From the NCBI GenBank assembly GCA_021298555.1, contig JAJTGE010000020.1, forward strand, positions 1-43,708: DNA of 43,708 bases. Direction: 5' to 3'. The notes under the pieces are model-generated. The model saw only the letters and a program-made list of their open reading frames with translations, made no database searches and was not told the DNA's origin. Shown in pieces: positions 9,286 to 43,538 of this stretch. Source of the stretch: Oxalobacteraceae bacterium (lineage in GTDB: Bacteria > Pseudomonadota > Gammaproteobacteria > Burkholderiales > Burkholderiaceae_D). The first letter of the stretch is position 1. The number at the start of each line of letters is the position of its first letter. The position numbers were made by a program, and so were the translations under genes.

Positions 9286-9318
9286 TAACTGACCATACTG
9301 ACTCATAAAAAATTATTT

Positions 9319-16025: not shown

Positions 16026-17546
<1,521 letters not shown>

Positions 17547-17601
17547 TTAGTGATGCTTGCAAATTACGCTAACACTGAACAAATAATTTAGGAGAAACAC
17601 C

Positions 17602-18024
17602 ATGCGCATTACTCAAGGTCAGTTTTCATTTTTGCCTGATTTAACCGATGACGAAATTCGCGCACAAGTCGATTACGCACTGGGCAGGGGCTGGGCACTG
17701 TCGGTGGAATGGACAGACGATCCGCATCCGCGTAACTGCTACTGGAACATGTGGGGTATCCCTATGTTTCAAATTAAGGATGGCGCAGCGATTTTGTTTG
17801 AAGTAAACGCGTGCCGTAAAGCTCATTCTGAGGTGTACATCAAGGTCAATGCATTTGATAACACCCGCGGTGTCGAATCCATGGTCATGAGCTTTTTAGT
17901 TCAGCGCCCAACAGTTGAACCAGGCTTTGGTTTGCAGCGTACCGAAGAACATGGCCGCACAATACGCTACACCACGTTTAGCTACGCATCACAAAAGCCA
18001 GCAGGTCAACGTTACGGCGGGTGA
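17602..18024 (+). CDS. cbbS: RuBisCO small subunit, red type
   Basis: The small subunit of the L8S8 enzyme. At 140 residues it has the long C-terminal beta-hairpin extension (about residues 108-140, PTVEPGFGLQRTEEHGRTIRY and after) that marks red-type small subunits, in place of the internal loop of green-type ones. The conserved core RITQGQFSFLPDLTDDEI, then GWALSVEWTDDPHPRNCYW and MWGIPMF is intact. AGGAG precedes ATG 17602. It is cotranscribed with cbbL and cbbX. Confidence 0.97.
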   Translation: MRITQGQFSFLPDLTDDEIRAQVDYALGRGWALSVEWTDDPHPRNCYWNMWGIPMFQIKDGAAILFEVNACRKAHSEVYIKVNAFDNTRGVESMVMSFLVQRPTVEPGFGLQRTEEHGRTIRYTTFSYASQKPAGQRYGG

Positions 18025-18031
18025 TTAAGTC

Positions 18032-18973
18032 ATGAACGCACCTGATACCTTGCCAGCATCGCCAGCCGCTGATCTTCCAACGGCTATCGATTTGCAACAA
18101 ATACTACGTGACGCAGAAGTACAGCCCGTTATCGATCAACTTGATGCTGAGTTGATCGGTTTGGCGCCTGTAAAAGCACGCATACGTGAGATCGCCGCTT
18201 TTTTGGTGGTCTCGCGTGCGCGTGCGGCGATGGGTCTGGAAGCCGCTACGCCTAGTTTGCACATGTGCTTTAGTGGTAATCCAGGTACTGGTAAAACCAC
18301 AGTAGCTATGCGCATGGCCGAGATACTGCATCGCTTAGGTTATGTACGCAAAGGGCATGTGATATCGGTGACTCGTGATGATTTAGTCGGGCAGTACATA
18401 GGCCACACTGCACCCAAGACCAAAGAAGTATTGAAAAAGGCCATGGGTGGGGTGTTGTTCATTGATGAGGCTTATTACTTGTATCGCCCAGAAAATGAAC
18501 GCGACTACGGACAAGAAGCGATAGAAATTTTATTGCAGGTTATGGAAAACCACCGCGATGATTTGGTGGTTATTCTTGCCGGTTACAAAGACAGAATGGA
18601 TACGTTCTTTCAGTCGAATCCGGGTATGTCGTCACGCATAGCGCATCACATCGATTTTCCGGATTACACCGAGCTAGAACTCACACAGATCGCTGGCAAG
18701 ATGGTGGGCGGTATGAACTACCACCTCGATGCAGAAGCAGAAAAAGCCATGCAGGAATACATACACCTGCGTCGCCAGCAACCGCATTTTGCCAATGCAC
18801 GTTCCATACGTAATGCTTTAGACCGTGCGCGGTTACGGCAAGCAAATCGTATCTTTCAACAAGCAATGAATGGCGATGCCACCGTTACGGCAGAACAGCT
18901 GTCAGTGATTTCTGCTGATGATTTACGTGCATCGCGTGTGTTTACAGGTGGTTTGGCAGCAGAAAAAAATTAA
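18032..18973 (+). CDS. cbbX: CbbX, AAA+ activase of red-type RuBisCO
   Basis: Removes inhibitory sugar phosphates from red-type RuBisCO by ATP-driven pulling on the large-subunit C-terminus. 313 residues: Walker [11 protein letters not shown] at 81-90, Walker [12 protein letters not shown] from 141, pore-loop region [14 protein letters not shown], and sensor/arginine-finger region around [18 protein letters not shown]. The gene starts seven bases after the cbbS stop, the common cbbLSX arrangement. Its presence supports the red-type call for cbbL/cbbS. Confidence 0.97.
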
Positions 18974-19051
18974 ACATTACGTCATGGGTAGTAGAGATGT
19001 AACTAGCAACGCAACATAGCAGCCACATAAAATAATTCTAATGGAGGCATC

Positions 19052-20119
19052 ATGCATCAGGGGCGCACCACTTTATCGAAATTCCTGATTCAGCAGCTCA
19101 AGGGATCATCTGAGCAAAGTGATCTGGCGGCGTTGTTAGTGGATATTGCAGCGGCGGTTAAAGCTATATCGGCCATGACAGCCAAAGGCGAGTTAGGCGG
19201 CGTATTGGGCAGCCTTGATAGCACCAATGTTCAAGGTGAAACGCAAAAAAAACTTGATGTTATGTCGGACACCGCTTTCATCAATACCTTTGCGATGGGT
19301 GGCTTGGTAGCAGGTTTAGCCTCTGAGGAAAACGATGACATCGTCGAGATTGATCCAGGCGAGGGTGCAGGTCGGTTCTTAGCGGTGTTTGATCCATTGG
19401 ATGGTTCATCAAATATTGATGTCAATGTGTCCGTAGGTTCGATTTTTTCTGTGTTGCGTGCGCCAGAAGGCCGCAAGCCGGAGGTGTCTGATTTTCTGGT
19501 GATAGGTCGACAGCAACTCGCAGCGGGTTATGCGATTTATGGCCCATCCACCATGTTTGTACTAACGGTAGGTAAAGGTACGCACGGTTTCACACTTGAT
19601 CGAGAAGTGGGAAATTTCATCCTCACGCATCCGCACATGCAAGTGCCAGCGGATACCAGTGAATTTGCTATTAACGCGAGTAACGAGCGCTTTTGGGAGC
19701 CGCCCGTGCAGCGTTATGTAGTCGAATGCAAAAACGGTAAAACCGATGTACGTGGGCGCGATTTCAATATGCGTTGGATAGCCAGCATGGTGGCGGATAT
19801 TCATCGCATTCTTATGCGCGGTGGGGTGTTTATGTACCCACGCGATACCAAAGATCCATCCAAAGCAGGCCGCTTACGTTTGATGTATGAAGCCAATCCC
19901 ATGAGCATGGTGATAGAGCAGGCCGGTGGTTTAGGTTCTACTGGCCGCGAACGTATCTTAGATATAGAGCCGGGCGATATACATCAACGTGTACCAGTAG
20001 TAATTGGTTCGCGCAATGAAGTAGAGCGCATAGAAAAATATCACCACGAGTATGACAGTGGCACAGATGAGAAATATACCTCGCCGCTGTTTCAAGAGCG
20101 CTCGCTGTATGCCAATTAA
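19052..20119 (+). CDS. cbbF: Class I fructose-1,6-bisphosphatase
   Basis: Hydrolyses fructose-1,6-bisphosphate (in many cbb operons also sedoheptulose-1,7-bisphosphate) in the regeneration phase. 355 residues. DPLDGSSNIDVNVSVG near residue 113 is the metal-binding core of class I FBPases; VGSIFSVLR, YAIYGPSTMFVLTVG and GGVFMYPRDTK follow in the usual order. GGAGG lies before ATG 19052. It sits 78 bases after cbbX and 48 before prk. The operon lacks an obvious second, class II copy. Confidence 0.96.
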   Translation: MHQGRTTLSKFLIQQLKGSSEQSDLAALLVDIAAAVKAISAMTAKGELGGVLGSLDSTNVQGETQKKLDVMSDTAFINTFAMGGLVAGLASEENDDIVEIDPGEGAGRFLAVFDPLDGSSNIDVNVSVGSIFSVLRAPEGRKPEVSDFLVIGRQQLAAGYAIYGPSTMFVLTVGKGTHGFTLDREVGNFILTHPHMQVPADTSEFAINASNERFWEPPVQRYVVECKNGKTDVRGRDFNMRWIASMVADIHRILMRGGVFMYPRDTKDPSKAGRLRLMYEANPMSMVIEQAGGLGSTGRERILDIEPGDIHQRVPVVIGSRNEVERIEKYHHEYDSGTDEKYTSPLFQERSLYAN

Positions 20120-20167
20120 AAGGCGAATTTTCTACACCACTACTTATTACAAAACTCGGAGATAACC

Positions 20168-21040
20168 GTGTCAGTTAAACATCCTATCGTTGCGATCACT
20201 GGCTCATCTGGTGCTGGTACTACGACGGTCATGAAAAGCTTTCAGCATATTTTTCGCCGTGAACAAATTCGCGCGCAGATACTCGAAGGCGATTCTATGC
20301 ACCGCTACAACCGCTTGGAGATGCGCGAAGCCTTAAAGCAGCAGCAAGCAGCGGGTAACGACTCATTTAGCCATTTCAGCCCTGATGCAAATATTTTGGG
20401 TGAGTTGGCAAACACCTTTAAGATCTTTGGTGAAACAGGCGCTGGTCGGGTACGTAAATACATACATGATGATGGTGAAGCCGCAGAATTTGGCCAAGAC
20501 CCAGGTACCTTCACCCCATGGAAAGATATGGATGCAGGTGCTGAACTTTTGTTTTATGAAGGCCTGCATGGTGGTTATGTAGGTGATGATGCGGATGTAG
20601 CGCGCCATGTCGATTTGCTGGTTGGTGTGGTGCCCATCATTAATCTTGAGTGGATACAAAAGCTACATCGCGATCAAAATATGCGCGGCTATTCGCAAGA
20701 TGCTGTGATGGATACGATATTGCGCCGTATGCCGGACTACACGCGGCATATCTGCCCACAGTTTTCACGAACGCACGTAAATTTCCAGCGCGTGCCAACG
20801 GTTGATACGTCGAATCCTTTCATTGCTAAAGATATTCCTAGTGCCGATGAAAGTATGGTGGTGATTCGCTTTGCAAATCCCAAGGGCATTGATTTTCCGT
20901 ATCTGCTGTCCATGATAGAAAACTCGTGGATGACACGTCCTAATACGTTTGTTATACCCGGCGGAAAAATGGGATTGGCTATGCAGTTAATTTTTACACC
21001 GATGATTTTGCGTTTAATGGACAGAAAGAAGCGCGCATGA
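20168..21040 (+). CDS. cbbP: Phosphoribulokinase
   Basis: Phosphorylates ribulose-5-phosphate to ribulose-1,5-bisphosphate, the step that feeds RuBisCO. 290 residues, the short bacterial octameric type. Walker A-like [12 protein letters not shown] is at residues 10-21. [25 protein letters not shown] and [21 protein letters not shown] carry the catalytic and substrate residues. The start is GTG 20168 after CGGAG. The stop overlaps the transketolase start (ATGA), so the two are translationally coupled. Confidence 0.97.
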
Positions 21041-23031
21041 AAAACGCACAATCAAGTACACGTGAGTTAGCTAATGCGATTCGTTTTCTCGCCATTGATG
21101 CAGTCAATAAAGCAAAGTCAGGCCACCCAGGCGCGCCCATGGGCATGGCTGATATTGCTGAGGTGTTATGGCGCCATCATTTAAAACATAATCCGGGTAA
21201 TCCGCATTGGACAGATCGTGATCGTTTTGTATTATCGAATGGTCATGGCTCTATGCTGCTGTATGCATTACTGCATTTGTCGGGCTACGATTTGTCTATT
21301 GACGATATTAAAGAGTTTCGCCAGTTGCACAGTAAAACACCGGGCCATCCTGAAGTGGATATCACACCCGGAGTAGAAACCACCACCGGTCCGCTGGGCC
21401 AGGGTTTAGCAAACGGTGTGGGTATGGCACTCGCAGAAAAAATTCTTGCTCGTCGTTTTAATCGTGATGGTCACACTATTATTGATCACCGTACCTGGGT
21501 GTTTTTAGGTGATGGGTGTTTGATGGAAGGCGTAAGTCACGAAGTGTGTTCGTTAGCGGGTGTGTGGGGCTTAGACAAACTCACCTGCTTTTATGACGAC
21601 AATGGCATCTCTATTGATGGCCATGTTGAAGGTTGGTTTAAAGACGACACTGCGGCACGTTTCCGTGCGTATGGCTGGCATGTGATTGGCCCGATAGATG
21701 GCCATGATGCAGCAGCGATTAATGGCGCTATCGAAGAAGCCAAACACACCACGGGTAAACCCAGCATGATTATCTGCCGCACGCAGATAGGTTGGGGCTC
21801 GCCGAATATGGTGGGCACGCATGATGTGCACGGCGCACCGTTGGGTGACAAAGAAACCGAGGCTACACGTGCAGCACTCAATTGGCCGCACGCGCCGTTT
21901 GTAATTCCCGAATCGATTCAATCTGCATGGAATGCTAACGCCAGCGGTATAGCTCACGAAGCAAAATGGCAGCACGCGTTTACGTCGTATGCCAAGGCGC
22001 ATCCAGAGTTGGCTGCTGAATTTACCCGCGTAAGCCACCGTGAATTACCGGTGGATTGGTCTGACGTTAAAGCATCACTCTTCAGTTTAGCCCAGGGTAT
22101 TACAGCAGCCACAGCAACACGTAAATCGAGTCAGCAAATGCTGGATTTGTTGGTTGCTGGTGTGCCTGAATTATTAGGCGGCTCGGCTGACTTAACAGGA
22201 TCGAATCTCACCGCAGGTAAGACTAGTCGTGCATGGCATAGCAACAAAGATAGTGATGCCAATTACATCTCGTATGGCGTGCGTGAATTTGGTATGACCG
22301 CCATTATGAACGGCGCTGTGCTGCATGGTGGTTTGATTCCGTATGGCGGCACGTTTGCGGTGTTCTCAGATTATTCTCGCAATGGCATACGCATGAGCTC
22401 GCTTATGAAGCAGCGCGTGGTGCATGTGCTGACGCATGATTCCATAGGTTTGGGTGAAGATGGCCCTACGCATCAACCGATAGAACATGCAGCGAGTTTG
22501 CGCTTAATACCCGGTTTGGATGTATGGCGTCCGTGCGATGGCATGGAAACTGCGGTTGCCTGGGCATGCTCACTTGAACGTCACGATGGTCCATCGGCTT
22601 TACTACTCTCGCGTCAGAATTTGCCGCAACTATCCAATGCGATATCTGCAGAGTCGATAGCTAAAGGTGGTTATGTGTTGTCGGATAGTGAGCAAGCACC
22701 CGAAGCCGTACTCATTGCTACCGGCTCAGAAGTAATGATCGCTATCGAAGCTCAAAAAACGTTACGTGAACACGGTCGTCATGTGCGTGTGGTGTCTATG
22801 CCGTGTACTGCCCGCTTTGATGCGCAGCCTTTGGTATGGCAACAGCAAGTTTTACCTGAAGGCGTAAAACGTATTGCGATAGAAGCAGGGCATCCTGATT
22901 TTTGGCGTAAATACGTAGGTTTGGCGGGTCATGTGATTGGCGTCGCGCGCTTTGGCGAATCCGCACCCGCGCCGCAGGTGTATGACGCGTTTGGTATCAC
23001 AGCAGGACAATTAATCGCAGCGGTCGGATAA
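21037..23031 (+). CDS. cbbT: Transketolase
   Basis: Thiamine-diphosphate enzyme that moves two-carbon units in the regeneration phase. 664 residues, full length. [19 protein letters not shown] near the N-terminus, [14 protein letters not shown], the TPP/Mg site [13 protein letters not shown], the aminopyrimidine region with [15 protein letters not shown], and the pyrimidine domain with [14 protein letters not shown] are all intact. It overlaps prk by four bases and is followed after ten bases by cbbZ. Confidence 0.97.
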
Positions 23032-23041
23032 GGGAGTAACC

Positions 23042-23794
23042 ATGGCTTTAGTAATGTATGACTTAGATGGCACGCTGTTAGATACGGCCGACGAAATTGC
23101 CGAGGCAGTCAATCTCACGTTAAAAGAATTTGGTCTGGAAAGCGTATCGGTAGATCAGGTACGTAATTGGATAGGCCATGGCACAGGTTGGTTAATGAAA
23201 CGTGCTTGGGAAGAGCAGCAGGGTCCTGCGGATGCCAACTGGGATAAGGTGATGCAGCGCTTTATACATCATTATGAAGCCACTGCAGGCACCACTAGCA
23301 CACCGTTTCCCCATGTATTAGAGACACTGCGCAAAGCGCGTGACTATGGTGTGAAGCAAGCCGTTGTTACTAATAAAGAGCGACGCTTTGCTGATCGTAT
23401 TTTGCAAAAGCACGGCTTGATGGATCAGTTTGATTTAATCGTTTGCGGTGATTCACTCAGCGTTAAAAAACCCAACCCCGGCATGATTAATCATTGCCTA
23501 GATACCTTGGGTGTGACGAATGGAGAATCACTGTTCATAGGCGACTCAGAAATCGATGTGTCTACTGCCAAAGCTGCAGGTGTGCTGTGTTGGGCTGTGC
23601 CGTATGGCTATAACTTGGGCCGTCCAATTGCGGATGCGCCGGCGCGCGTAAATACGCGGGCGAAGCTTTTTTACGCAAACTCGTTGAAGCGGCTATTGAG
23701 CAGTACCCTGATATTCCAGTTTGTATGCATCAAGACCATGGCGCATCTCCTGCGGTATGTCAGGGTTCGATACGCAGTGGATTTTCTAGTGTGA
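23042..23794 (+). pseudogene. cbbZ: Phosphoglycolate phosphatase, C-terminus lost by fusion to cbbA
   Basis: HAD-family enzyme that removes the phosphoglycolate made by RuBisCO oxygenation. The first 199 or so residues are normal: nucleophile motif YDLDGTLLDTADEI (Asp7, Asp9), VVTNK for motif II, and SLSVKKPNPGMI and FIGDSEIDVSTAKAAGV for motifs III and IV. After about PIADA (near 23636) the reading frame runs into the aldolase gene in the wrong frame and adds about 50 unrelated residues up to 23794. The catalytic motifs are all before the break, so a partly active product is possible, but the normal last 20-25 residues are missing. ATG 23042 follows GGGAG. Confidence 0.85.
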
Positions 23795-24552
23795 TGATGG
23801 ATGGTTCGCTCAAAGAAGATGCCAAGACACCAGCTAGCTATGAGTACAACGTTGAGGTTACGCGTCGCGTAGTTGAAATGGCGCATGCAGTCGGCGTGTC
23901 AGTAGAAGGCGAGTTGGGATGTTTGGGTTCGCTGGAAACCGGCCAGGCAGGTGAAGAAGATGGCGTGGGTGCTGAAGGCACGTTGGATCATTCACAATTA
24001 CTGACCGACCCAGACGAAGCCGCACAATTTGTCGCCGCGACTGATGTGGATGCCTTGGCAATTGCCATTGGTACCAGTCACGGTGCGTATAAATTTAGCC
24101 GCCCACCTACCGGCGATATTTTAGCGATTGATCGTATTAAAGCTATACACAAGCGCATACCGAACACACACTTGGTGATGCATGGTTCGTCGTCAGTGCC
24201 GCAAGAATATCTGGAGATGATCCGTCAGTACGGCGGCGACATTAAAGAAACCTATGGCGTACCTGTGCAAGAGATTGTTGAAGGTATTAAGCATGGCGTT
24301 CGCAAAATTAATATAGATACCGACATACGTTTAGCGATGACTGCCGCTATGCGCAAAGCGATGGCGGATAAGCCCGATGAATTTGATCCACGCGCGTTTT
24401 TGAAAGCCGCTACTGCCGCTGCTAAAAAAGTGGTGAAGGATAGATTTGAATCATTTGGTTGCGCAGGTCAGGCGTCCAAGATGAAAGCCATGCATTTGGA
24501 TCATATGGCGGGTCTGTATCAAAAGGGTACTTTGCGAGCCAAGGTTCACTAA
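23641..24552 (+). pseudogene. cbbA: Class II fructose-bisphosphate aldolase, N-terminus missing
   Basis: Joins dihydroxyacetone phosphate to glyceraldehyde-3-phosphate (or erythrose-4-phosphate) in the Calvin cycle. From 23641 the frame reads [20 protein letters not shown], then [13 protein letters not shown] (zinc-binding/catalytic HxDH), [32 protein letters not shown] and [10 protein letters not shown], all typical of CbbA-type aldolases. The first ~51 residues of the family (the MALISLRQLLDHAAE...QASA part) are absent because the sequence is joined to cbbZ. The frame has no start before ATG 23725, which has no ribosome binding site and would remove still more of the barrel. I expect no functional aldolase from this copy unless the junction is a sequencing or assembly error. 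Confidence 0.85.
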
Positions 24553-24603: not shown

Positions 24604-25287
24604 ATGATCATTCCGGGCCAACACCGTTGCGTACTGTTTGATGTCGATGGCACGATAGCCGAAACAGAAGGACAGGCTCATCTTCCAGCGTTTAATCGTG
24701 CGTTGGAAGAAGCGGGCTTGCCCTGGCGCTGGACGCATGCAGATTACAAGCGCCTGCTTAAAACGGCGGGTGGTTTCGAGCGACTATTGCGCTATGCCGA
24801 AGAAACCGGTAACGATACTGGCGCATTACGTCATCTGTTAGCTAGTGTTCATAAAAACAAAAACAAACACTTTGCTGAAATCCTCGCCTCGGGAGCGGTT
24901 GCACCTCGTGCAGGTTTTGCGGAACTGATTCATAGCCTCACTCGCAGCAACATACGCTGGGCAGTAGTGACCACCACTAGCCGATCCAACTGGGATGCAC
25001 TGTGGAATTTTTCACTTTCACCTTTAGAGCTGCCAGTGCCTGAGGTAATCGTTGTCGGTGATGATGTGCAAGTAAAAAAACCAGATCCTGAAGCATACCT
25101 TTTAGCGTTACAGCGGCTTGGGTTAGCTGCCCATGATTGTTGCGCGATTGAAGATTCTCGTAATGGCTTATTGGCTGCCGGTGGCGCGGGCTTGGCTGTG
25201 GCTATCGTACGCAGCGAGTTTTTTGCAGATGAATCGTTTGATGGCGCGGCGGTGGTGGTGAATGAGCTGACCGAGTTGGTGGTTTAA
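24604..25287 (+). CDS. cbbY: CbbY, HAD-family sugar-phosphate phosphatase
   Basis: In the family, CbbY-type enzymes remove misfire products of red-type RuBisCO such as xylulose-1,5-bisphosphate. From ATG 24604 the product has 227 residues: nucleophile motif VLFDVDGTIAETEGQAH (Asp13, Asp15), motif II VVTTTSRSNWDAL, motif III GDDVQVKKPDPEAYL and motif IV CCAIEDSRNGLLAA. The helical cap with WRWTHADYKRLLKTAGGFERL is CbbY-like. A TTG at 24562 is in frame, but it adds residues not expected for the family. It lies 51 bases after the damaged cbbA and ends the cbb operon. Confidence 0.9.
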   Translation: MIIPGQHRCVLFDVDGTIAETEGQAHLPAFNRALEEAGLPWRWTHADYKRLLKTAGGFERLLRYAEETGNDTGALRHLLASVHKNKNKHFAEILASGAVAPRAGFAELIHSLTRSNIRWAVVTTTSRSNWDALWNFSLSPLELPVPEVIVVGDDVQVKKPDPEAYLLALQRLGLAAHDCCAIEDSRNGLLAAGGAGLAVAIVRSEFFADESFDGAAVVVNELTELVV

Positions 25288-25481: not shown

Positions 25482-25835
25482 ATGACGCCCGAGATCATTG
25501 CAAAATTAGACCCTGCAACGGCGGACGCGATGCGTACGTTTGAAGATAAGGTTTCTGTGCGCAGTGATTTTGCGGGTCTGATTCTATTTGGCAGTCGAGC
25601 TAGAAATACCCATCGTGCAGATAGCGACGCAGATGTTGTTGTGCTATTGCGCGGATCACCCGGAAAGTTTATTGCTACTAAATTTGCGATGGATGATTTG
25701 GCATATGACGTGCTGTTGGATACAGGCATTCGTATACAGCCGTTACCCGTATGGGAGTCTGAATGGAATCAGCCGGAAACTTACTCTAATCCTTGGCTTT
25801 TAAAAAACATTGCGAACGAAGGAATTCGTCTGTGA
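25482..25835 (+). CDS. MNT-family nucleotidyltransferase (minimal nucleotidyltransferase of an HEPN-MNT type pair)
   Basis: A 117-residue minimal nucleotidyltransferase. FGSRARNTHRADSDADVVVLL holds Gly37-Ser38 and the metal-binding Asp49/Asp51 of the GSx10DxD signature. MNT proteins are usually the antitoxin of HEPN-MNT systems, adding nucleotides to the HEPN ribonuclease. The next reading frame starts at GTG 25832, overlapping the MNT stop (GTGA), as expected for such a pair, but it stops after 15 codons. The gene therefore looks like an orphan or relic. No clear ribosome binding site precedes ATG 25482. Confidence 0.75.
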   Translation: MTPEIIAKLDPATADAMRTFEDKVSVRSDFAGLILFGSRARNTHRADSDADVVVLLRGSPGKFIATKFAMDDLAYDVLLDTGIRIQPLPVWESEWNQPETYSNPWLLKNIANEGIRL

Positions 25836-25879
25836 CAGCGGATGGGTTACTCAATAGACTCATCGATAAATGTCACTAA
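25832..25879 (+). pseudogene. 15-codon stub where the HEPN partner gene should be
   Basis: GTG 25832 overlaps the MNT stop by four bases and reads MTADGLLNRLIDKCH before TAA at 25877-25879. A coupled HEPN gene often follows an MNT gene in just this position. The 15 residues are too few to prove HEPN homology. The rest of the gap up to 26056 does not continue a partner gene in any frame I can follow. Confidence 0.35.
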
Positions 25880-25990
25880 GTGTCACCTACCGGTGAGTGC
25901 GAAGTTTTTGGAAGTTTGGGGACGTACCAACCATTTGGCAAGACAGGTTTTGAGGTTGGGACGAGAGACTGATGGGCTTCTGAGTTAATT

Positions 25991-26047
25991 GTAACACTAA
26001 AAATACACGATAACAAAATTATAGTTAAGGTGCATTTTTAGTGTTAC
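25991..26047. promoter_or_regulatory. Long inverted-repeat operator of the AbiE-like pair
   Basis: Arms gtaacactaaaaatacac (25991-26008) and gtgcatttttagtgttac (26030-26047) are inverted copies with one mismatch in 18. The 21-base spacer contains an AT-rich stretch with TATAGT at 26020-26025, a possible -10 box. The repeat ends ten bases before the start of the AbiEi-like gene. AbiEi antitoxins are known to repress their own promoter through inverted repeats, which fits this layout. Confidence 0.7.
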
Positions 26048-26056
26048 CATTGGCGA

Positions 26057-27034
26057 ATGGATGCCCAACTTCAAACCTATCTGCGCGACGTTCTTGGCAA
26101 AGCTATTGCTGATGTTAAGCCCTGTGTTGAAGCAGACCGACTGCCCTATTTTCTGCAAGACGAATTCAATTTTCTGTCTGCGCGCATTGCAGGTACTGGG
26201 GTTGTGCTGGCAATCCCCAAGCCTCAGGCAAATCCCTCACTCAAAACTATTCGAGCTCAATTAGCGCGCGCTGAAGCTGAGCTCGGACACCCTGTGGCCT
26301 ACTGCCCACCAGCGCTCGCATCATATGAACGACGAAATCTTATAGAGCAAAAGCAGGCATTTATTGTGGCGGGCAATCAGATGTATTTGCCCGATATGGG
26401 CATTGATCTTCGCGAGTACTTTAGTAAAGCAAGAACAAAAAATGTCGACGTATTTAGTCCTTCAACACAAGCAATTCTTATTTGGTTATTGCTAAATCAC
26501 CCAGTTCAGCAGCAATGGTTTGCAAGCGATGTCGGAACGCCTTTGGGATATTCGCTAATGACGGCTAACAGAGCCATACGCGAATTAGAAAGCGCTGAGC
26601 TAGTTGAGAGCGAGATGAATGGGCGTGTTCGAGTTGTAAAATTTTTACGTACCAATGAACAAATTTGGCAAATGGCGCAGCCCTATTTGAAAACACCGGT
26701 TAAACGCAGTGCATGGATAAAGCCGCCGAAAAAAAGTAGTACGTATCGTCTTGCAGGATTGTCTGCACTTGCGCAAAAAAGTAATCTGGCTTCACCTAGT
26801 GAAACTTGCTATGCAATGAGCGGCATAGCGTGGACTAAGCTGCAAAATAAAATAGATCATCTGCCTCAAGCTGTGCCGGGATTGAGTGAGCTGCAATTGT
26901 GGTCGTATCAGCCAGATATGGTTGGCAAATCTAATGCGGTTGATCCGTTATCACTCTGGATTAGCTTGAAAGAAGATGACGATCCCAGAATTAAAATGGC
27001 GCTTGACGAAATGATGAGGGAGATCGTTTGGTAA
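26057..27034 (+). CDS. AbiEi-like antitoxin/autorepressor (winged helix)
   Basis: A 325-residue protein upstream of, and overlapping, an AbiEii-like nucleotidyltransferase. A helix-turn-helix of winged type lies around residues 150-200 (SLMTANRAIRELESAELVESEMNGRVRVVKF), with a longer C-terminal domain (YRLAGLSALAQKSNLASPSETCYAM) that resembles the antitoxin domain of AbiEi proteins. The N-terminal part is less familiar. In AbiE systems this protein represses the promoter and counteracts the toxin. The inverted repeat just upstream is its likely binding site. The family call rests mainly on the pair and the C-terminal pattern. Confidence 0.7.
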   Translation: MDAQLQTYLRDVLGKAIADVKPCVEADRLPYFLQDEFNFLSARIAGTGVVLAIPKPQANPSLKTIRAQLARAEAELGHPVAYCPPALASYERRNLIEQKQAFIVAGNQMYLPDMGIDLREYFSKARTKNVDVFSPSTQAILIWLLLNHPVQQQWFASDVGTPLGYSLMTANRAIRELESAELVESEMNGRVRVVKFLRTNEQIWQMAQPYLKTPVKRSAWIKPPKKSSTYRLAGLSALAQKSNLASPSETCYAMSGIAWTKLQNKIDHLPQAVPGLSELQLWSYQPDMVGKSNAVDPLSLWISLKEDDDPRIKMALDEMMREIVW

Positions 27035-27771
27035 GAGGTTTGCAAATATTTAGCGCTTGGTTTGAAAAATTTACAGATCAATATGTTTTGATAGGCGGTA
27101 CGGCAGCAAGTCTTGTAATGAATACGGCCGGAGTTGAATTTCGACAGACAAAAGACTTCGACATTGTTATTCATATCGAAGTGCTGAAAAGTGAATTCAT
27201 TGCAACATTTTGGGAGTTCATTAAGGCTGGGCGGTATGAAATCAAACTGTCAGGGGTACATGGAAAGCCTTGTTTGTATCGGTTTCAGAAACCCGCGGAT
27301 AACGAATTTCCATACATGATCGAATTATTTGCAAGAGCACCTATCAATTTAGAAATGGCATTTGGTCAAAAGTTAACTCCATTGCGTGCAGAGGACTTGG
27401 CATCAAGTCTTTCTGCAATATTGTTAGATGATGATTACTATAAATTCATTCTAGAAAATAGACGAATTACAGATGGAATTCCTATTATCGCTGAGGTTGG
27501 GTTGATTCCACTCAAGGCGCTGGCTTGGTTGAATCTGAAAGAATCCAAGGAAGCCGGAGAGCAGATCGACTCAAGAGACATTAAAAAACATCTTAATGAT
27601 ATAGAAAATATTTCAGGGTTATTAGCACCGAGTTTCACTGTTGATATTTCTGAAAAAATCGTTAGTGATTTAAGTAGATTTACCAAAGAGCTTAAAAAAC
27701 TGGAAGATTCGAAAAAAAATTATTCGATCTTAACCAATAGGCTAAAGATAACTTATGGACTGCTAAACTAA
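27028..27771 (+). CDS. AbiEii-like nucleotidyltransferase toxin
   Basis: A 247-residue DNA polymerase beta-fold nucleotidyltransferase. VLIGGTAASLVMNTAGVEFRQ followed by TKDFDIVIHI gives a G-G motif at 23-24 and metal-binding Asp43/Asp45, as in AbiEii/COG toxins. LKALAWLNLKESKE and SRDIKKHLNDI in the C-terminal part also fit. It starts at TTG 27028, overlapping the AbiEi-like stop by seven bases, with GAGGGAGA just upstream. No other start is near. AbiEii toxins use GTP and stop growth on phage infection; here the role is inferred from the family. Confidence 0.75.
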   Translation: MVRGLQIFSAWFEKFTDQYVLIGGTAASLVMNTAGVEFRQTKDFDIVIHIEVLKSEFIATFWEFIKAGRYEIKLSGVHGKPCLYRFQKPADNEFPYMIELFARAPINLEMAFGQKLTPLRAEDLASSLSAILLDDDYYKFILENRRITDGIPIIAEVGLIPLKALAWLNLKESKEAGEQIDSRDIKKHLNDIENISGLLAPSFTVDISEKIVSDLSRFTKELKKLEDSKKNYSILTNRLKITYGLLN

Positions 27772-28109: not shown

Positions 28110-29403
28110 TTATGCCACAAAGCCTTCTGATTGCTGTTCCCACAAACGCGCATAGTAACCATCAAGAGCTAGTAATTCTTGGTGTGAGCCTTGCTCGAGT
28201 ATGCGTCCATTTTCCATATACACGATGCGATCCATAGCTGTTAGGGTAGACAAGCGATGCGCGATAGCGATCACAGTACGGCCACGTATAACTTCGGCGA
28301 TCGCTTCGGTGATTTGATGCTCGGTGTGCGAATCCAGTGATGATGTCGCCTCATCCATTAACAATATGGGCGCGTCTTTTAACAATGCACGCGCAATGGC
28401 TATGCGTTGCCGCTCACCACCCGACAAATGAGTACCGCGCTCACCGACGATGGCCTCTAAGCCTTGCTCGCGATCGCGTATGAATTCATCGCACTTAGCT
28501 TGTTTAAGTATTTGGTGCAGGCGTTCATCGCTGACATCGCTCGACGCATAGGAGATGTTCTCTCGCAGCGAGCGATGAAACATGGTGGATTCTTGCGGAA
28601 TTTCTGCTACCGATAAATTCAAGCTCGCCAACGAAACGGTTGAAATATCTTGCCCGTCAATGAGTATGCGGCCAGCTTTAAGATTGTATTGGCGTGTGAG
28701 CAGTTTTAAGAGAGTGCTCTTGCCTGAGCCCGATGGCCCGACTAAGCCGATTTTTTCACCGGCGCGTATATGAAAATTAAGATTGCTGAGTACGGGTCGC
28801 GCATCATGATAACTAAACTGCACGCTATCGAATTCAATCATCCCTGAGTGCGCGAGTAAATTGTTAGCTACAGCAGGCTCTTTGATTTCATGCGGGCTTA
28901 ATATGGTGTCGAGCGAGTTAGTTAAGCTGCCGATTTGTTCGAAAAAATTCAATAGCTGCCCGCATAAACCATTCACATTCGCAGCTAATATCGCAGCTAA
29001 CGAAATCATTAAACTGACATCGCCTAGGGTTAATTGATCGAGTGAGTACAGATGGATAGCGTAGGCGATAAAACCTATTTGAAACAGCAACACACCACCA
29101 AACCAAACCTATCCATCCAAATAATTTGAGTGCATTTTTTTGAAGATCGGGCGTTAGGCTGCTGCCACCCTGCAAAAGATCAAAAAGCTGCTTAAGCAGC
29201 AGTGGCTCAAAACCCATCAGTGAAATACCACCTGCCGCAGTTAACACTAGCAGGATGGAACGCAGCGGTCGCTGGCGACACACCAGTTCAAGGTACATGC
29301 GCAGCGGTGAGCGAAGTTCTGAAGTAGGTACAGAGCGGAGCAAACCCTCGCTGGCGGGTAGGCGGGGCGGGGGCGCAAGGGTTGCCGTGGTGGGCTTGGT
29401 CAT
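28110..29403 (-). pseudogene. ABC exporter half-transporter with internal deletion and frameshift
   Basis: The N-terminal part (from 29403) codes for a cytoplasmic tail and the first membrane segment (SILLVLTAAGGISLMGFEPLLLKQLFDLL), then LKLFGWIGLVWW. At about 29093-29100 the true frame changes to one that starts GGVLLFQIGFIAYAIHLYSLD, a late membrane segment. The ATPase follows intact: Walker A GPSGSGKST, signature LSGGERQR, Walker B ILLMDEATSSLD, and IAHRLST. The two parts add up to about 430 residues instead of roughly 580-600, so about 150 residues covering the middle membrane helices are lost together with the frame. Originally probably a lipid or peptide exporter of the MsbA/type I-like group. 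It is unlikely to work now. Confidence 0.8.
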
Positions 29404-29604: not shown

Positions 29605-30009
29605 TTACCAAATCTCTAGACTCACGTAGTCGGGGGGTATTTTAGAAAAAGCTTTGTCACGGCTGACTAGCGTTGATTTAACTGATGCTGCATGGGCAGC
29701 AATCATCATGTCGAAATCACTCAAATTGATGCCTTGGGACTCTAAGTTATTGCACAGTTCACCATAGCGAATGGCGGCTTCTTCATCCCAAGATAAAACA
29801 TCGATTCGCAATAGTACTTGGGTCAGCGCATTTCTCAGGCGAGTGGGTTGGCCTCTGCGGTGTAATCCGTATTCCAGTTCGGCCAAGGTTATGCTGGACA
29901 TTGAAGCCTGACCAACTGCCACCTGTGTTAACCGATTCAGTAAATCATTATCGCGGCCCTGCATGATGTGACTGATGATATTGGTGTCGAGCAGGTAGTG
30001 CATGCTCAT
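29605..30009 (-). CDS. vapC: VapC-family PIN-domain toxin
   Basis: A 134-residue PIN ribonuclease. The four acidic positions are present: Asp8 in YLLDTNI, Glu44 in TLAELEYG, Asp98/Asp100 in LSDFDMMIAAHA and Asp118 in VSRDKAF. PIN toxins cut tRNA or rRNA. The start ATG (30007-30009) overlaps the stop of the antitoxin by four bases (ATGA), so the pair is coupled. It appears intact, with the expected length. Confidence 0.9.
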   Translation of the reverse strand: MSMHYLLDTNIISHIMQGRDNDLLNRLTQVAVGQASMSSITLAELEYGLHRRGQPTRLRNALTQVLLRIDVLSWDEEAAIRYGELCNNLESQGINLSDFDMMIAAHAASVKSTLVSRDKAFSKIPPDYVSLEIW

Positions 30010-30257
30010 TTTTGGTCGGTCTCAAAGGGGTCGCGACGTGTGTTGGTTTGGCGGCGTTCAATTAGCAAATCATCCTCGGCGTTTAGTTTTACAACGTCGA
30101 TTAAACCCTGCCAATCGGTTGGCTTCCGGGATAGCACAACATCGCCTGTGACAGGGTCATGGCGAATATAGACTTCCGTAACATCAAATCGGAACTCCAG
30201 CGGCAGACGTACCGCTTGGCTGCGACCAGTGGTAAAAATTTTGGCAGTTTGATACAT
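30006..30257 (-). CDS. vapB: VapB-family antitoxin with AbrB-type domain
   Basis: The 83-residue product from ATG 30257 starts MYQTAKIFTTGRSQAVRLPLEFRF, the SpoVT-AbrB/MazE swapped-hairpin DNA-binding motif of VapB antitoxins. The C-terminal part, Asp/Glu/Arg-rich, should wrap the toxin. GGAGG is four bases before the start, which decides it over a longer frame from 30302. It probably represses its own promoter through the inverted repeat just upstream. Confidence 0.88.
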   Translation of the reverse strand: MYQTAKIFTTGRSQAVRLPLEFRFDVTEVYIRHDPVTGDVVLSRKPTDWQGLIDVVKLNAEDDLLIERRQTNTRRDPFETDQK

Positions 30258-30275
30258 TTTTCCTCCACACGACAA

Positions 30276-30311
30276 ATGATATGTCTCATGGTATATATCC
30301 ATTCATATCAT
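30276..30311. promoter_or_regulatory. Inverted-repeat operator of vapBC
   Basis: ATGATATG (30276-30283) and CATATCAT (30304-30311) are perfect eight-base inverted arms with a 20-base spacer containing the nearly palindromic ATGGtatataTCCAT. It lies 20 bases upstream of vapB, on the promoter, as expected for VapBC autoregulation. Downstream to 30478 I see no gene. Confidence 0.6.
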
Positions 30312-30971: not shown

Positions 30972-32162
30972 TCACACTTTCACGAGGCCGAGTAAATGGG
31001 CCATGTCTTTAAAAAATATTTTCACATGCGCCATGGGTTTCGCACGAACGAGTTCTTTGTTCATGTACGCATCGAAGGTTAATTTCTGCACATCTTTGTC
31101 TTTGCACATATCGACAAAACGCTCGCGTCGTTTGTCGCTTGAATACCAAAAGTACTGCATGATACCCAAGACCCAGAACACCTTGCGGTGATCTTTCATA
31201 AAGCGTTTACGCGCTTTTGCCAGGCTACGAACATTGCCAGTTGCAAGTAATTCTTCAACTGCATCACCAGCCAAACGACCGCCCAGCATGGCGTAATAAA
31301 TACCTTCACCAGATGCGGGTGCAACTACACCTGCAGCATCACCGGCAAGTACGACATCACGGCCGTTATCCCAGCAGCGCAAAGGTTTCATGGGAAGTGG
31401 CGCACCTTCGCGGCGTATTGTGATCGCATCACGTAAGCCTACAGCTTCACGTAATGAGGTGGTGGCATTACGTAATGAAAATCCTTTGTCTGCACTGCCA
31501 GTACCTATGGATAGCGTGTCGCCATGTGGGAATACCCAGCCATAAAAATCAGGCGATAAATGGCCTTGATAAAACACATCACAACGTGTGGCATCGTAAT
31601 CAGCGGGTTTAATTTCTGGTGCTTTAACTATTTCGTGATACGCAAAAACATATTTGGTTTTTTCTGCATCAGGAATGGTTTGCTGTGCTACTGCTGATCG
31701 TGCACCGTCAGCGCCGATGATGCTACGTGCACGTACAGTTTGTCGTTCACCACTATCACCATTGACATAACTGACAGTGCTTACGCCATCAATATCTTTA
31801 CCTACACGTTCAAATTTTCCATTGCGTCGTATAGCGCCATGTGAGGCAGCGCGCTCACGCAGCCATTCATCAAATTGTTCGCGATCGACCATGCCAACGA
31901 ATCCGCCTTCAATCGGGATATCCACTTTGGTATCGGATGGCGCAATCATGCGCGCTGAACGTGCTTTGGCGACTAAGAGCTCATCGGGAATTTCAAAATC
32001 TTTAATGGCGCGCGGTGGTATAGCACCACCGCAGGGTTTGATGCGACCAGCGCGATCAAGAAGTAGCACACGGCGACCGCGTCGCGCTAGGTCATCGGCA
32101 GCTGTTGCACCTGCTGGTCCGCCACCCACAATGACTACGTCAAATTGTTCTTGTGTGCTCAT
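30972..32162 (-). CDS. bchP: Geranylgeranyl diphosphate/bacteriochlorophyll reductase
   Basis: Reduces three double bonds of the geranylgeranyl tail to give phytyl in bacteriochlorophyll a. 396 residues, flavoprotein: FAD-binding VVIVGGGPAGATAADDLA, then GRIKPCGGAIPPRAIKDF, SIIGADGARSAVAQ and VVLAGDAAGVVAPASGEGIYYA with the second GD motif. These are the CHL-P/BchP marks. GAGGAGA precedes ATG 32162. The upstream gene is the PucC-like transporter (86-base gap), the downstream one tspO. Confidence 0.96.
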   Translation of the reverse strand: MSTQEQFDVVIVGGGPAGATAADDLARRGRRVLLLDRAGRIKPCGGAIPPRAIKDFEIPDELLVAKARSARMIAPSDTKVDIPIEGGFVGMVDREQFDEWLRERAASHGAIRRNGKFERVGKDIDGVSTVSYVNGDSGERQTVRARSIIGADGARSAVAQQTIPDAEKTKYVFAYHEIVKAPEIKPADYDATRCDVFYQGHLSPDFYGWVFPHGDTLSIGTGSADKGFSLRNATTSLREAVGLRDAITIRREGAPLPMKPLRCWDNGRDVVLAGDAAGVVAPASGEGIYYAMLGGRLAGDAVEELLATGNVRSLAKARKRFMKDHRKVFWVLGIMQYFWYSSDKRRERFVDMCKDKDVQKLTFDAYMNKELVRAKPMAHVKIFFKDMAHLLGLVKV

Positions 32163-32248
32163 GATGTCTCCTCATCGCGTGCTTCTGTTGTACGTTAATT
32201 TTTTTATTGCGATTGCTGGTAGTGGTACTAAATTTTTTTCAACCCTGT

Positions 32249-33583
32249 TTATGAATACGACGGCTGGCCGATGCCTTCTTCTGTGTCTTCTTGCGCTGGC
32301 TCTATCATCGTAATGCGCAGCGCCAGTAATGCAGAGGCGATAAACAATACTGCTTCAGCAGCAAACACGCTGCCATACGCTATGCCAGTTGATGGAATTA
32401 ACCAGTGCGTAAGATCGCTTGCAGCTGTTCCCAACAATCCACCAAAACCAAATGCGATTGCTTGTGCGGCACCCCATAGACCCATGCGCACACCTTCGCG
32501 TGAAGCACGACCTTCGGTTGCTAGTCGCATCATCTGACCAATAGCGGCAATAGAAAATGCGCCATTCGCGGCACCCATTAAAAATACATTGGCTTTGAGT
32601 GGCCATGGCTCACCGACAAAGCCAGCAATGGCCAGACCTGTTAGCGTGATAGCGGAAGCGATACAGCCGCCTACACACCACAGTTTGAGTGAGCCAGCGC
32701 GACCCTTTGTAAATTTGCTGCCAACAAAAGCGACGATCAACATACCGATCAACACACCAGTGTGTTGTACACCGGAGAGTGAGGTAGATTCACCCGGGGT
32801 GTATCCAAATACGGTGCCGGCAAATGGCTCAAGAATTAAATCTTGCGCGCTGTAAGCCAGCATGGAGATAAAAATAAAAATCGTAAATTGACGCGCGGCG
32901 TCTTCTTTCCAAACATCAGCGAGTGCCGTACGAAACGGTACTGCGTCCGATGCTGCAACGGGTTCAGGAATAATGTCGCCCGGATCATTTTCCAGTCTAA
33001 ACAGCGCAATTAATGTGACGGCGAGGGCGGTTGCGCACACAGTGAGCGTGACGGCGAGTAATCGTGTTGGTGAATACGGATCAAGTAGTTTGCCAGCAGC
33101 GCCAGCAGTCACAGCAAATCCAACTATCATCATTACCCAAACAGCGGTGGCAGCAGCTGCACGTTTTTGTCCATCCACACGCATGGCGAGCAGCACTAGC
33201 AAGGAGGTGCCCGCAGCACCGACTCCCAAACCGATCATGATAAAACCGGCAGTGGCAACAATGATTCCCAGAGTGGGTGAGTTGGCTATCAAGGTGGTGG
33301 AAAAGCTGGCCGCCAGTGCGCCCGCTGCGAGTATCACCATGCCACCCATAATCCACGGTGTGCGTCGTGAACCGAGATCGGATCCATGCCCCATGCGTGG
33401 CCGCGATACCTGCACTAAATAATGCAAGGCCACCAAAGCGCCAGGTAATAAGGCCGGTAAAGTCAGCTCAACCACCATGATGCGATTGAGTGTAGACGTC
33501 ATCAAAACAACGATAGCGCCCAAGGAAGCTTGTACTAATCCCAAGCGAATAATTTCAGTCCAGCCAAATGCTTTTTCATTCAT
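32249..33583 (-). CDS. PucC-family (BCD, major facilitator) light-harvesting assembly/transport protein
   Basis: A 444-residue, 12-helix membrane protein of the PucC/LhaA/Bch2 group. The N-terminus has IIRLGLVQASLGAIVVLMTSTLNRIMVVEL, a PucC-family hallmark, and then the short RPRMGHGSDLGSRRTPWI loop. Its place between bchG and bchP is where the family member called bch2/orf428 is found in other purple bacteria. It probably handles bacteriochlorophyll for light-harvesting complex assembly. It starts five bases after the bchG stop. Confidence 0.9.
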   Translation of the reverse strand: MNEKAFGWTEIIRLGLVQASLGAIVVLMTSTLNRIMVVELTLPALLPGALVALHYLVQVSRPRMGHGSDLGSRRTPWIMGGMVILAAGALAASFSTTLIANSPTLGIIVATAGFIMIGLGVGAAGTSLLVLLAMRVDGQKRAAAATAVWVMMIVGFAVTAGAAGKLLDPYSPTRLLAVTLTVCATALAVTLIALFRLENDPGDIIPEPVAASDAVPFRTALADVWKEDAARQFTIFIFISMLAYSAQDLILEPFAGTVFGYTPGESTSLSGVQHTGVLIGMLIVAFVGSKFTKGRAGSLKLWCVGGCIASAITLTGLAIAGFVGEPWPLKANVFLMGAANGAFSIAAIGQMMRLATEGRASREGVRMGLWGAAQAIAFGFGGLLGTAASDLTHWLIPSTGIAYGSVFAAEAVLFIASALLALRITMIEPAQEDTEEGIGQPSYS

Positions 33584-33587
33584 TGTG

Positions 33588-34466
33588 TTATTCCATCAGT
33601 CCACGCAGCGCAAAGGCTGAGACCATCATTCCCGTTACAAGTAAAGGCACACCAAAGGCTGACAGTTTTAATGCCCGCTCTGTAGGCGAGGCCACGAAAC
33701 GCTGCATCATCTGCAGTTGCCCTAGCACCAGCACAATAACTACCAGAGCTTGTGCAATGTTGTTCCAACTAAACAGCAGCAAAATGACTGCTAATTGCGG
33801 CACGATCATTACGCGGCAGGCGGTATGTGCAGCGCTGTTCACACCCAGCATCACAGGTAACGACCGCACGCCCATTTGCCTATCGCCTTCAACCGCTTTG
33901 AAATCATTTAAGGTCATGATTCCATGTGCCGCAATGCTGTACAGCAATGCTAGCAGTAAAGAACGTGAATCAGGCATTGCGCCGCCCGCCATCACGGCCG
34001 CGCCAGTCACCCAGGCCAGTCCTTCATATGACAGTCCGCACGCGGCATTGCCCAACCAACCGTTTTCTTTTAGCCGTATCGGCGGGGCGCTATAAGCCCA
34101 AGCCAACACCAGCCCCAATACCGCCGCCCGAAATCCCCATTCGCCCAGCAGCGTGGCAACTAACAGAGACAAGCCGGTCCAAATTAGCGCGATATACAAA
34201 CCCCAATAACCCGGCATACGGCCTGAAGGTATGGGTCGCTGAGGTTCGTTAATTGCATCGACATGTCTGTCAAACCAGTCATTTACTGCTTGGCTGCTAG
34301 CGCACACCATAGGCCCGGCCAAGACTATGCCCGTCACAATGATCGGCCACTTACCTTCCGGCGATACCCCAGAGGAAATCGCGCCACAGGCAAACGCCCA
34401 CATGGGTGGAAACCAGGTGATAGGTTTTAGTAATTCGGCAACAGTAGATAAGGACGGGCTAGCCAT
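33588..34466 (-). CDS. bchG: Bacteriochlorophyll synthase
   Basis: Attaches the geranylgeranyl (or phytyl) tail to bacteriochlorophyllide; UbiA-type membrane prenyltransferase. I choose ATG 34466, giving 292 residues starting MASPSLSTVAELLKPITWFPPMWAF; an in-frame TTG at 34502 would overlap the operator. The catalytic Asp-rich motif NDWFDRHVDAINEPQRPIPSG and the second motif DFKAVEGDRQMGVRSLPV are intact. First gene of the minus-strand pigment unit with the PucC-like gene, bchP and tspO. Confidence 0.95.
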   Translation of the reverse strand: MASPSLSTVAELLKPITWFPPMWAFACGAISSGVSPEGKWPIIVTGIVLAGPMVCASSQAVNDWFDRHVDAINEPQRPIPSGRMPGYWGLYIALIWTGLSLLVATLLGEWGFRAAVLGLVLAWAYSAPPIRLKENGWLGNAACGLSYEGLAWVTGAAVMAGGAMPDSRSLLLALLYSIAAHGIMTLNDFKAVEGDRQMGVRSLPVMLGVNSAAHTACRVMIVPQLAVILLLFSWNNIAQALVVIVLVLGQLQMMQRFVASPTERALKLSAFGVPLLVTGMMVSAFALRGLME

Positions 34467-34496
34467 GCAAGCGATTGTGCCCGTGACAGTTTTTAG

Positions 34497-34514
34497 CGTC
34501 AATTAAAATTGACA
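34497..34514. promoter_or_regulatory. PpsR-like palindrome at the bchG promoter
   Basis: The sequence cgtcaattaaaattgaca is a 16-base perfect palindrome plus one base on each side. Read on the minus strand it is TGT-N12-ACG, one base from the PpsR/CrtJ consensus TGT-N12-ACA. A possible -35 TTGACG sits inside it, with CACAAT 17 bases downstream as -10. It lies just before bchG. The ppsR gene is in the same cluster, so binding is plausible, though not proven. Confidence 0.5.
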
Positions 34515-34588
34515 CTTGACTAGGCAGTGTTCGATTCGAATTAGGGCATGCCTGACAAGAGGATTATCTTGGCTCAACAGAAGTTGGA

Positions 34589-34618
34589 TTGACAAAAGTA
34601 GTTCATTGAACTACTTTT
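34589..34618 (+). promoter_or_regulatory. Promoter embedded in a perfect palindrome upstream of brnT
   Basis: TTGACA (34589-34594) and TACTTT (34612-34617) are 17 bases apart. The palindrome AAAAGTAGTTCA-t-TGAACTACTTTT (34594-34618) covers the spacer and the -10 box. Transcription would start at about 34624, i.e. at the brnT start codon (34623), so the brnT mRNA may be leaderless; no ribosome binding site is seen. The palindrome is a likely operator for the Xre partner. Confidence 0.65.
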
Positions 34619-34622
34619 ATGC

Positions 34623-34904
34623 ATGGAGTTCGAATGGGATGAAGCCAAAAGCGAAAGCTGCTTTATGCAGCGAGGTTTTGATTTCCCGTACGCTCTTAGG
34701 GCATTCCTAGATCCCCATCGGATGATAAATCAGGATAGGCGCTGGGATTACGGTGAAGATCGATATCAGTTGCTAGGGGTAGTGGAAGGATGTGTCTTTT
34801 TTGTGGCGTATACAGTGAGAAAAAATAGTATTCGAATCATATCGGCAAGAAAAGCGAATAGAAGAGAGACAAGAGACTATGAAAACAATACGAGTGAAAA
34901 TTGA
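34623..34904 (+). CDS. brnT: BrnT-family ribonuclease toxin
   Basis: A 93-residue protein with the BrnT pattern: MEFEWDEAKSESCFMQRGF, then ALRAFLDPHRMINQDRRWDYGEDRYQLLGVVEGCVFFVAYT and IRIISARKANRRETRDYE. BrnT has a RelE-like fold and cuts RNA. Here the partner is not BrnA but an Xre-type helix-turn-helix protein, whose gene overlaps by 26 bases. The gene stands inside the photosynthesis cluster, between bchG and the gmd-fcl genes. Confidence 0.88.
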   Translation: MEFEWDEAKSESCFMQRGFDFPYALRAFLDPHRMINQDRRWDYGEDRYQLLGVVEGCVFFVAYTVRKNSIRIISARKANRRETRDYENNTSEN

Positions 34905-35214
34905 CCCTAACAATCCAGCATCGCTGCCAGAGGGTCAAGTTGATCGCCAAATTTTGGATAGTACGACGGAGTCACAACTATCAGCACAACAAAAAATCGA
35001 TGATGCCGAAGCAATGAAGGACTCTGCAAAGTTCGCGCGCCGCGTTCGTAAACGTCTAGGACTCACACAGGAGGAATTTTCTCTTCGCATAGAGGTGCCT
35101 TTGAATACCATACGCAATTGGGAGCAAGGCAAACGCTGCCCGACAGGTGCCGCGAAGGCTTTATTAAGGGTGCTGGATAAATCACCAGAATCTGCGTTAT
35201 TGGCACTGAGATAG
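34879..35214 (+). CDS. Xre-family helix-turn-helix antitoxin paired with BrnT
   Basis: A 111-residue protein. Residues about 53-98 form a Cro/Xre helix-turn-helix (FARRVRKRLGLTQEEFSLRI then NTIRNWEQGKRCPTGAAKALLRVL). The N-terminal 50 residues are polar and likely the toxin-binding part. It overlaps brnT by 26 bases, so the two are coupled. It probably represses the shared promoter by binding the palindrome at 34594-34618. Confidence 0.85.
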   Translation: MKTIRVKIDPNNPASLPEGQVDRQILDSTTESQLSAQQKIDDAEAMKDSAKFARRVRKRLGLTQEEFSLRIEVPLNTIRNWEQGKRCPTGAAKALLRVLDKSPESALLALR

Positions 35215-35254
35215 AAGGCTATCAGCGACCAGGTAGAGATGTGTGCGATCCAAA

Positions 35255-36187
35255 CTAGTTTGGATAGCGCGCCAGAAAATCTTTATAGCTTTTAGCGATA
35301 CCGTCTTTTAGTAAGGTTCGCGCTTTCCAGCCCAGCGCATGTAATGCAAAGACATCAAGCAGCTTGCGTGGTGTGCCATCGGGCTTGCTGCTGTCGAATT
35401 CTAATTGCCCTTGAAAACCCACGACATCAAGTACGGTTTCAGCCAGCTCCCGTATGGTCTGATCAACACCAGTGCCAATGTTGAGTAATGAACCGGTGTA
35501 ATCGCTTTCCATCAAAAATGTGCATGCGTCAGCTAGGTCATCGGCGTATAAAAATTCGCGCATGGGTGTACCCGTGCCCCAGACTTCAAACGATTTATCT
35601 CCAGCGAGTTTTGCTTTGTGCGCTTTGTGTATGAGTGCGGGTAGCACATGGGAATTATTAAGATCGTAGTTGTCGTTCAAGCCGTAGAGGTTAGTAGGCA
35701 TGACACTGACATACTGACGACCGTACTGTTGATTGTAAGCGTCACATAATTTGATGCCTGCGATTTTTGCGATGGCATACATTTCGTTAGTGGGCTCTAG
35801 CGGACCAGTCAGCAAATACGATTCATTCATGGGCTGTGGGCAGTCGCGTGGATAGATACAACTACTACCTAAAAACATTAATTTTTGTATTTCAGCCAGA
35901 TGTGCACCATGAATTAAGTTGGCTTCAATACTGAGATTTTGAAAAATAAAATCTGCACGATACGTATTGTTGGCATGTATGCCACCCACTTTGGCGGCAG
36001 CGATAAAAATATACTCAGGTCGCTGATTTTCCAAAAATGCATAAACAGCTTTTTGATCCAGCAAATCAAGTTGATCGCGAGAGGCCGTAATAATATTGAT
36101 ATAGCCTTTGGATTGCAGCGACCGCACCAAAGCGCTACCCACCATTCCACGATGACCAGCTACAAAAATTTTTGCAGATTTATTCAT
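35255..36187 (-). CDS. fcl: GDP-L-fucose synthase
   Basis: Epimerises and reduces GDP-4-keto-6-deoxymannose to GDP-L-fucose with NADPH. 310 residues, short-chain dehydrogenase fold: FVAGHRGMVGSALVRSL at the N-terminus, FLGSSCIYPRDCPQPMNE, catalytic YAIAK, and ALIHKAHKAKLAGDKSFEVW. These match WcaG/Fcl. It begins 12 bases after the gmd stop; the two make the complete GDP-mannose to GDP-fucose route for a surface glycan. Confidence 0.95.
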   Translation of the reverse strand: MNKSAKIFVAGHRGMVGSALVRSLQSKGYINIITASRDQLDLLDQKAVYAFLENQRPEYIFIAAAKVGGIHANNTYRADFIFQNLSIEANLIHGAHLAEIQKLMFLGSSCIYPRDCPQPMNESYLLTGPLEPTNEMYAIAKIAGIKLCDAYNQQYGRQYVSVMPTNLYGLNDNYDLNNSHVLPALIHKAHKAKLAGDKSFEVWGTGTPMREFLYADDLADACTFLMESDYTGSLLNIGTGVDQTIRELAETVLDVVGFQGQLEFDSSKPDGTPRKLLDVFALHALGWKARTLLKDGIAKSYKDFLARYPN

Positions 36188-36199
36188 GCAGGCTATAAA

Positions 36200-37324: not shown

Positions 37325-37475
37325 GAGATAGTTAAAGTGAGATGGTGGGCGCAGTGACAATGAAATTCTAGCAAAGCTACAGCGAACTCAAAACGCGATT
37401 ATCCCAGATAAGCTGAGCGTACGACCAGCATTGAGTAGTTATCTTCGTGAATTGCTAAGTAGCCTAGGCGTGGTG

Positions 37476-38909: not shown

Positions 38910-39023
38910 AAATGTTGCAGGACGATCAACTTAAAAAACGACCGTACAGTATTTAAATATACCAGCGGATAGATTGTGACCGCAATTATAAGGATATTCA
39001 AGCTAAATTGTCAGTTGCTAGCG

Positions 39024-40075: not shown

Positions 40076-43538
<3,463 letters not shown>

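Follow-up and report, generated by a model that had tools for sequence, protein, structure and literature searches.

The junction at 23637..23640, where a shortened cbbZ runs out of frame into a headless cbbA, is probably a local assembly error, judging from sequence comparison with related genomes. An assembler or gap-closing step would have joined two true flanks and omitted ~253 bp (the end of cbbZ, the spacer and the start of cbbA) that would still be present in the living cell; we infer both the retention of these bases and the step at which they would have been dropped. This reading is favoured because clean gaps of the same kind recur across the draft and hit unrelated genes. The window, meaning the whole stretch of 43,708 nucleotides that was analysed, is the complete contig C108 of source draft G000, which comprises 2.45 Mb in 113 contigs and is 81.6% complete with 2.7% contamination; given this completeness, the number of contigs and the fact that its named relatives are mostly metagenome-assembled genomes (MAGs), the draft is probably metagenome-assembled as well. 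The best match among the genomes searched is G003, with cbbA DNA 87% identical; its cbb operon lies on record JAIPCX010000009, from a MAG labelled Polynucleobacter sp. Tobar2m-G34.

The cbbZ-cbbA junction

Upstream of cbbZ the window carries cbbL, cbbS, cbbX, cbbF, cbbP and cbbT (16065..23031, + strand), all full-length or nearly so by comparison with G003; the window also has a LysR-type regulator, which we take to be cbbR, on the - strand, and a HAD-family phosphatase with an open frame (24610..25287, + strand), presumably cbbY, lies downstream of cbbA. The G003 operon has an identical gene order and 79-98% protein identity to the window; it differs in that its cbbZ and cbbA are whole, with a spacer of 42 nt between them. 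Further along the window, a bacteriochlorophyll cluster of bchP, bchG, ppsR, bchF, bchN and bchB (30972-43538, named by NCBIfam) adjoins the Calvin operon. Small toxin-antitoxin-like genes are found at 25482-27771, 29605-30302 and 34623-35214, and include a nucleotidyltransferase, a PIN-domain protein and a BrnT toxin with a helix-turn-helix partner; the toxin-antitoxin-like gene pair at 26057-27771 has no Pfam match.

Profiles and the alignment of relatives indicate that cbbZ (23042..23638, + strand) lacks its last ~19 codons and stop. The best phosphoglycolate phosphatase profiles align to CbbZ as far as residue 199-203; TIGR01449 aligns to residue 203 and scores 174.5 bits, below its curated cut-off of 180. 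The class II fructose-bisphosphate aldolase gene cbbA (23641..24552, + strand) lacks its first 50-51 codons; its product covers positions 50-347 of the 347 in TIGR01521, with the start of the domain absent, and scores 532.7 bits, over the cut-off of 496.35 despite the domain not being full-length. Relatives reach the stretch encoded from 23641 at residue 51-52 of CbbA, in agreement with the earlier note, which had placed GARKYAG near residue 52. The two genes are in different frames that overlap by ~180 bases; the cbbZ frame continues to a stop at 23794, and the open frame made by the join (23042..23794, + strand) consists of CbbZ residues 1-199 followed by 51 out-of-frame residues, while the earliest ATG, GTG or TTG start in the cbbA frame is the ATG at 23725. 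Alignment of the window to G003 gives one clean loss of 253 bp with zero bases inserted, which removes ~19 codons from the end of cbbZ together with its stop, the spacer and ~50 codons from the start of cbbA; the missing segment has a GC content of 0.43 in G003. Of the earlier reading, the out-of-frame join of cbbZ to a headless cbbA is borne out by the profiles, the frames and the G003 alignment, and the 230-250 bases estimated for the two gene ends compare with the 253 bp measured; the larger loss, the microhomology in the GC-rich tract and the decaying carbon fixation that it also put forward find no support, and an assembly collapse is the alternative that it had itself raised. Production of a new functional CbbZ-CbbA protein from the join by frameshifting would make use of the frame overlap; it is next to inconceivable, however, as the aldolase would be 50 residues short at its N-terminus, the earliest start codon in its frame is at 23725, and other genus genomes have no match across the join.

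The tract gccggcgcgcg, in which microhomology had been suspected, is made of cbbA's own codons for AGAR and is not common to both sides of the join. At the position of the window's CCG, cbbZ has a Met codon (ATG) in all eight genus relatives and a Glu codon in G071. Breakpoint ties counted against G003 number four at cbbZ-cbbA, where they are non-contiguous; each of the eight remaining gaps, described below, has 0-3. The reference is ~80% identical, and these counts are rough for that reason.

Clean gaps elsewhere in the draft

The comparison of the two genomes covered 648 kb of G000 and, from the roughly 3.0 Mb of G003, 1.24 Mb; 175.7 kb aligned at 78.6% identity. A gap was counted where two adjacent blastn matches, each 150 bp or longer, were separated by no more than 12 bases in one genome and by a distance greater by 60 bases or more in the other; this rule selected 13 of the 46 junctions (10 with sequence lacking in G000 and three with sequence lacking in G003) and left 33 uncounted. 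The tenth G000 gap (1390 bp, C22) falls largely outside matched genes and was set aside, leaving nine clean gene-hitting gaps of 78-545 bp on five contigs within the 175.7 kb. Besides the 253 bp at cbbZ/cbbA, the window holds a 545 bp gap near 29098-29109 in an ABC exporter gene (28110..29403, - strand) that is a single 625-aa frame in G003. The others affect an acyl-CoA dehydrogenase (103 bp), RimO (126 bp), a histidine kinase (99 bp), an S49 peptidase (150 bp by blastn but 113 bp when one global alignment is used), an S13 peptidase and an EamA gene at the ends where they face each other (156 bp), HipA (78 bp) and NuoL, where ~235 bp of the core are missing out of frame near 9653 of G000:C61:8663-10416 (L200, L201); no other gene of G000 exceeds the family cut-off for nuoL, which is itself split in two. 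Four of the seven gene-internal gaps are in frame (one third expected, P = 0.17), and some of these may be natural; three of the four remove segments that look like hallmarks, namely SHDLRTP in the kinase, FIAGFPGE in RimO and MNSPGG in the peptidase, which we assume to be hallmark motifs of these families.

In the reverse direction, none of the three segments lacking in G003 lies inside a gene's interior. One, with 1.36 kb more in G000, holds an extra gene with its own 415-aa frame; the other two, of 267 and 146 bp in G000 (L194 and L195, G000:C6 near 35304-35570 and 44903-45048), reach no further into a G003 frame than its final 16-23 bases, begin alike and look like small insertion elements. 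As a sign of local assembly error, chosen within this analysis, the same type of defect recurs across the assembly and not in the relative. A control pair, G006-G003, has no gaps in 76.2 kb and none in its 73 genes, though it is smaller and more diverged (73.1% identity versus 78.6%). Genes with an internal gap or split number 7 of 161 in G000 and 0 of 73 in the control, and the contrast by genes is weak on these counts (Fisher P = 0.10), with P = 0.02 when length is used instead.

Nine such gaps on five contigs, with flanking pieces that mostly seem as constrained as other genes, could also arise from a burst of 80-550 bp deletions throughout the lineage, through recent erosion or a repair defect, of which the cbbZ-cbbA join would be one. 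Natural erosion should produce small frameshifts and stops as well. When 161 G003 genes were sought in G000, however, a test that does not reach the outer 15% of each gene flagged none as broken by a small frameshift, and the only stops fell within residues 1-48 of predicted frames. It is also improbable that a free-living phototroph would lose rimO and its sole nuoL, and a burst of this kind is considered very unlikely. The reverse look-up of 165 draft genes returned two short C8 frames (173 and 164 aa) with internal stops in G003, which may be spurious. Among the flanking pieces, the N-terminal part of the ABC exporter has a pN/pS of 0.296, over the 95% value of 0.251 for the other genes, but its alignment runs past the break. 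Small-gap statistics taken from blastn proved too noisy for use.

The joins themselves were also compared. Some gap closers join ends through overlaps of at least 10 shared bases, and no such overlap was seen at the nine junctions, where blastn overlap gives up to 6 bases common to the two sides. With so few shared bases no simple overlap-join is evident, which counts against a local assembly error. Inverted joins occur in amplification chimeras; among eleven contig pairs there is one short opposite-strand match only.

The operon in related genomes and the state of carbon fixation

cbbZ and cbbA are adjacent in each of the eight genus members where a single stretch covers the pair, either complete or truncated at the end of a contig; G014, whose cbbA is cut by a contig end, is counted among them. 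Aligned together with G071, which belongs to a different genus in the order, these make nine relatives with spacers of 19-129 nt. G019 carries cbbZ and cbbA on separate contigs. The idea that gap, pgk or pyk commonly lies between cbbZ and cbbA applies to the outgroup locus L083, which has pgk (8657-9841) in that place, but not within the genus, and the adjacency of the two genes argues against a larger loss that includes such genes. A match crossing the join occurs, among 21 genus genomes, in G000 itself and in 0 of the 20 others, seven of which have no match of cbbZ length and are hence uninformative.

Among the loci read from the genus, G001, G002, G008, G013 and G020 have no cbbT between cbbP and cbbZ; cbbA is absent beside cbbZ in G001, G008 and G020 and is down to 44 residues in G002. 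The missing cbbA and cbbT in the operon of several species of the genus probably form a real pattern, though it too is drawn from drafts; the absences are more likely to be real since they are seen in separate drafts. These sister operons resemble the window in that cbbA is affected in four of the five; they differ in that their genes are absent or mostly gone, whereas the window has an undecayed cbbA cut at one end. Loci L044, L048, L049, L050 and L051 belong to sisters without cbbT and/or cbbA, and both of these steps have housekeeping copies in draft G000. The housekeeping transketolase is itself divided between G000:C75:3-1883 and G000:C94:27767-27958, both at contig ends, and the draft seems to break inside it. 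Other disruptions are a cut in cbbT (G018), a disturbed cbbX (L075, L088) and a split cbbF (L082); these may be errors of a like kind or real.

The remainder of cbbA (23641..24552) contains no stops or frameshifts, and differs from G003 by 7 non-synonymous and 114 synonymous changes. Its pN/pS is 0.018, compared with a median of 0.106 and a 5% value of 0.036 for 155 other compared genes, some of them gap-hit themselves. An old pseudogene was considered and rejected, there being no extra stops, frameshifts or relaxed constraint. Further fba, gap and pgk genes, which the earlier note had suggested seeking in the rest of the genome, are present: a second class II aldolase gene, fba, is intact on C22 beside a pyruvate kinase gene, one pgk is also on C22, and two gap-type genes are on C94 and C106. 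Two more CbbZ-like phosphatases are encoded on C59 and C61, at 36% and 30% identity. With the second fba, pgk and two gap-type genes present, a break in cbbA need not stop the cycle; the rest of the operon is open, and decaying carbon fixation finds no support in this gene set.

The same spare genes would allow for a real and very recent deletion in the strain that joined cbbZ to cbbA and was tolerated through the second aldolase (beside pyk) and the other phosphatases; the CbbZ core would be kept and its tail may be changed. The operon cbbA, being absent or reduced to its last 44 residues in the four sisters named above, does look dispensable in the genus. Such a deletion would, however, need an origin separate from that of the remaining eight like gaps, one of them in single-copy nuoL; the remaining cbbA is undecayed, and the join has no counterpart in the other genus genomes that are informative for it. 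A recent deletion is on balance unlikely. The broader picture of a freshwater phototroph losing many genes at once through blunt deletions of 80-550 bp, with its Calvin-cycle aldolase caught mid-loss and its sisters already finished, is held to be improbable.

Comparison with known assembly errors

A local assembly error at cbbZ-cbbA would have consequences for how the draft is used: a reader who took the junction for a biological feature would be led to decaying carbon fixation, and calls of broken genes from G000 are unsafe, with 7 of the 161 compared G003 genes showing an internal gap or split. Local assembly errors that yield wrong protein-coding genes have been described for MAGs, where reads that do not support the sequence perfectly are the sign of such an error and IDBA-UD assemblies are suspected above others (Chen et al. 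2020, Genome Res., PMC7111523). The junction in the window, judged here from assembled sequences, would resemble those errors in that a short stretch is wrongly joined and incorrect genes result (PMC7111523).
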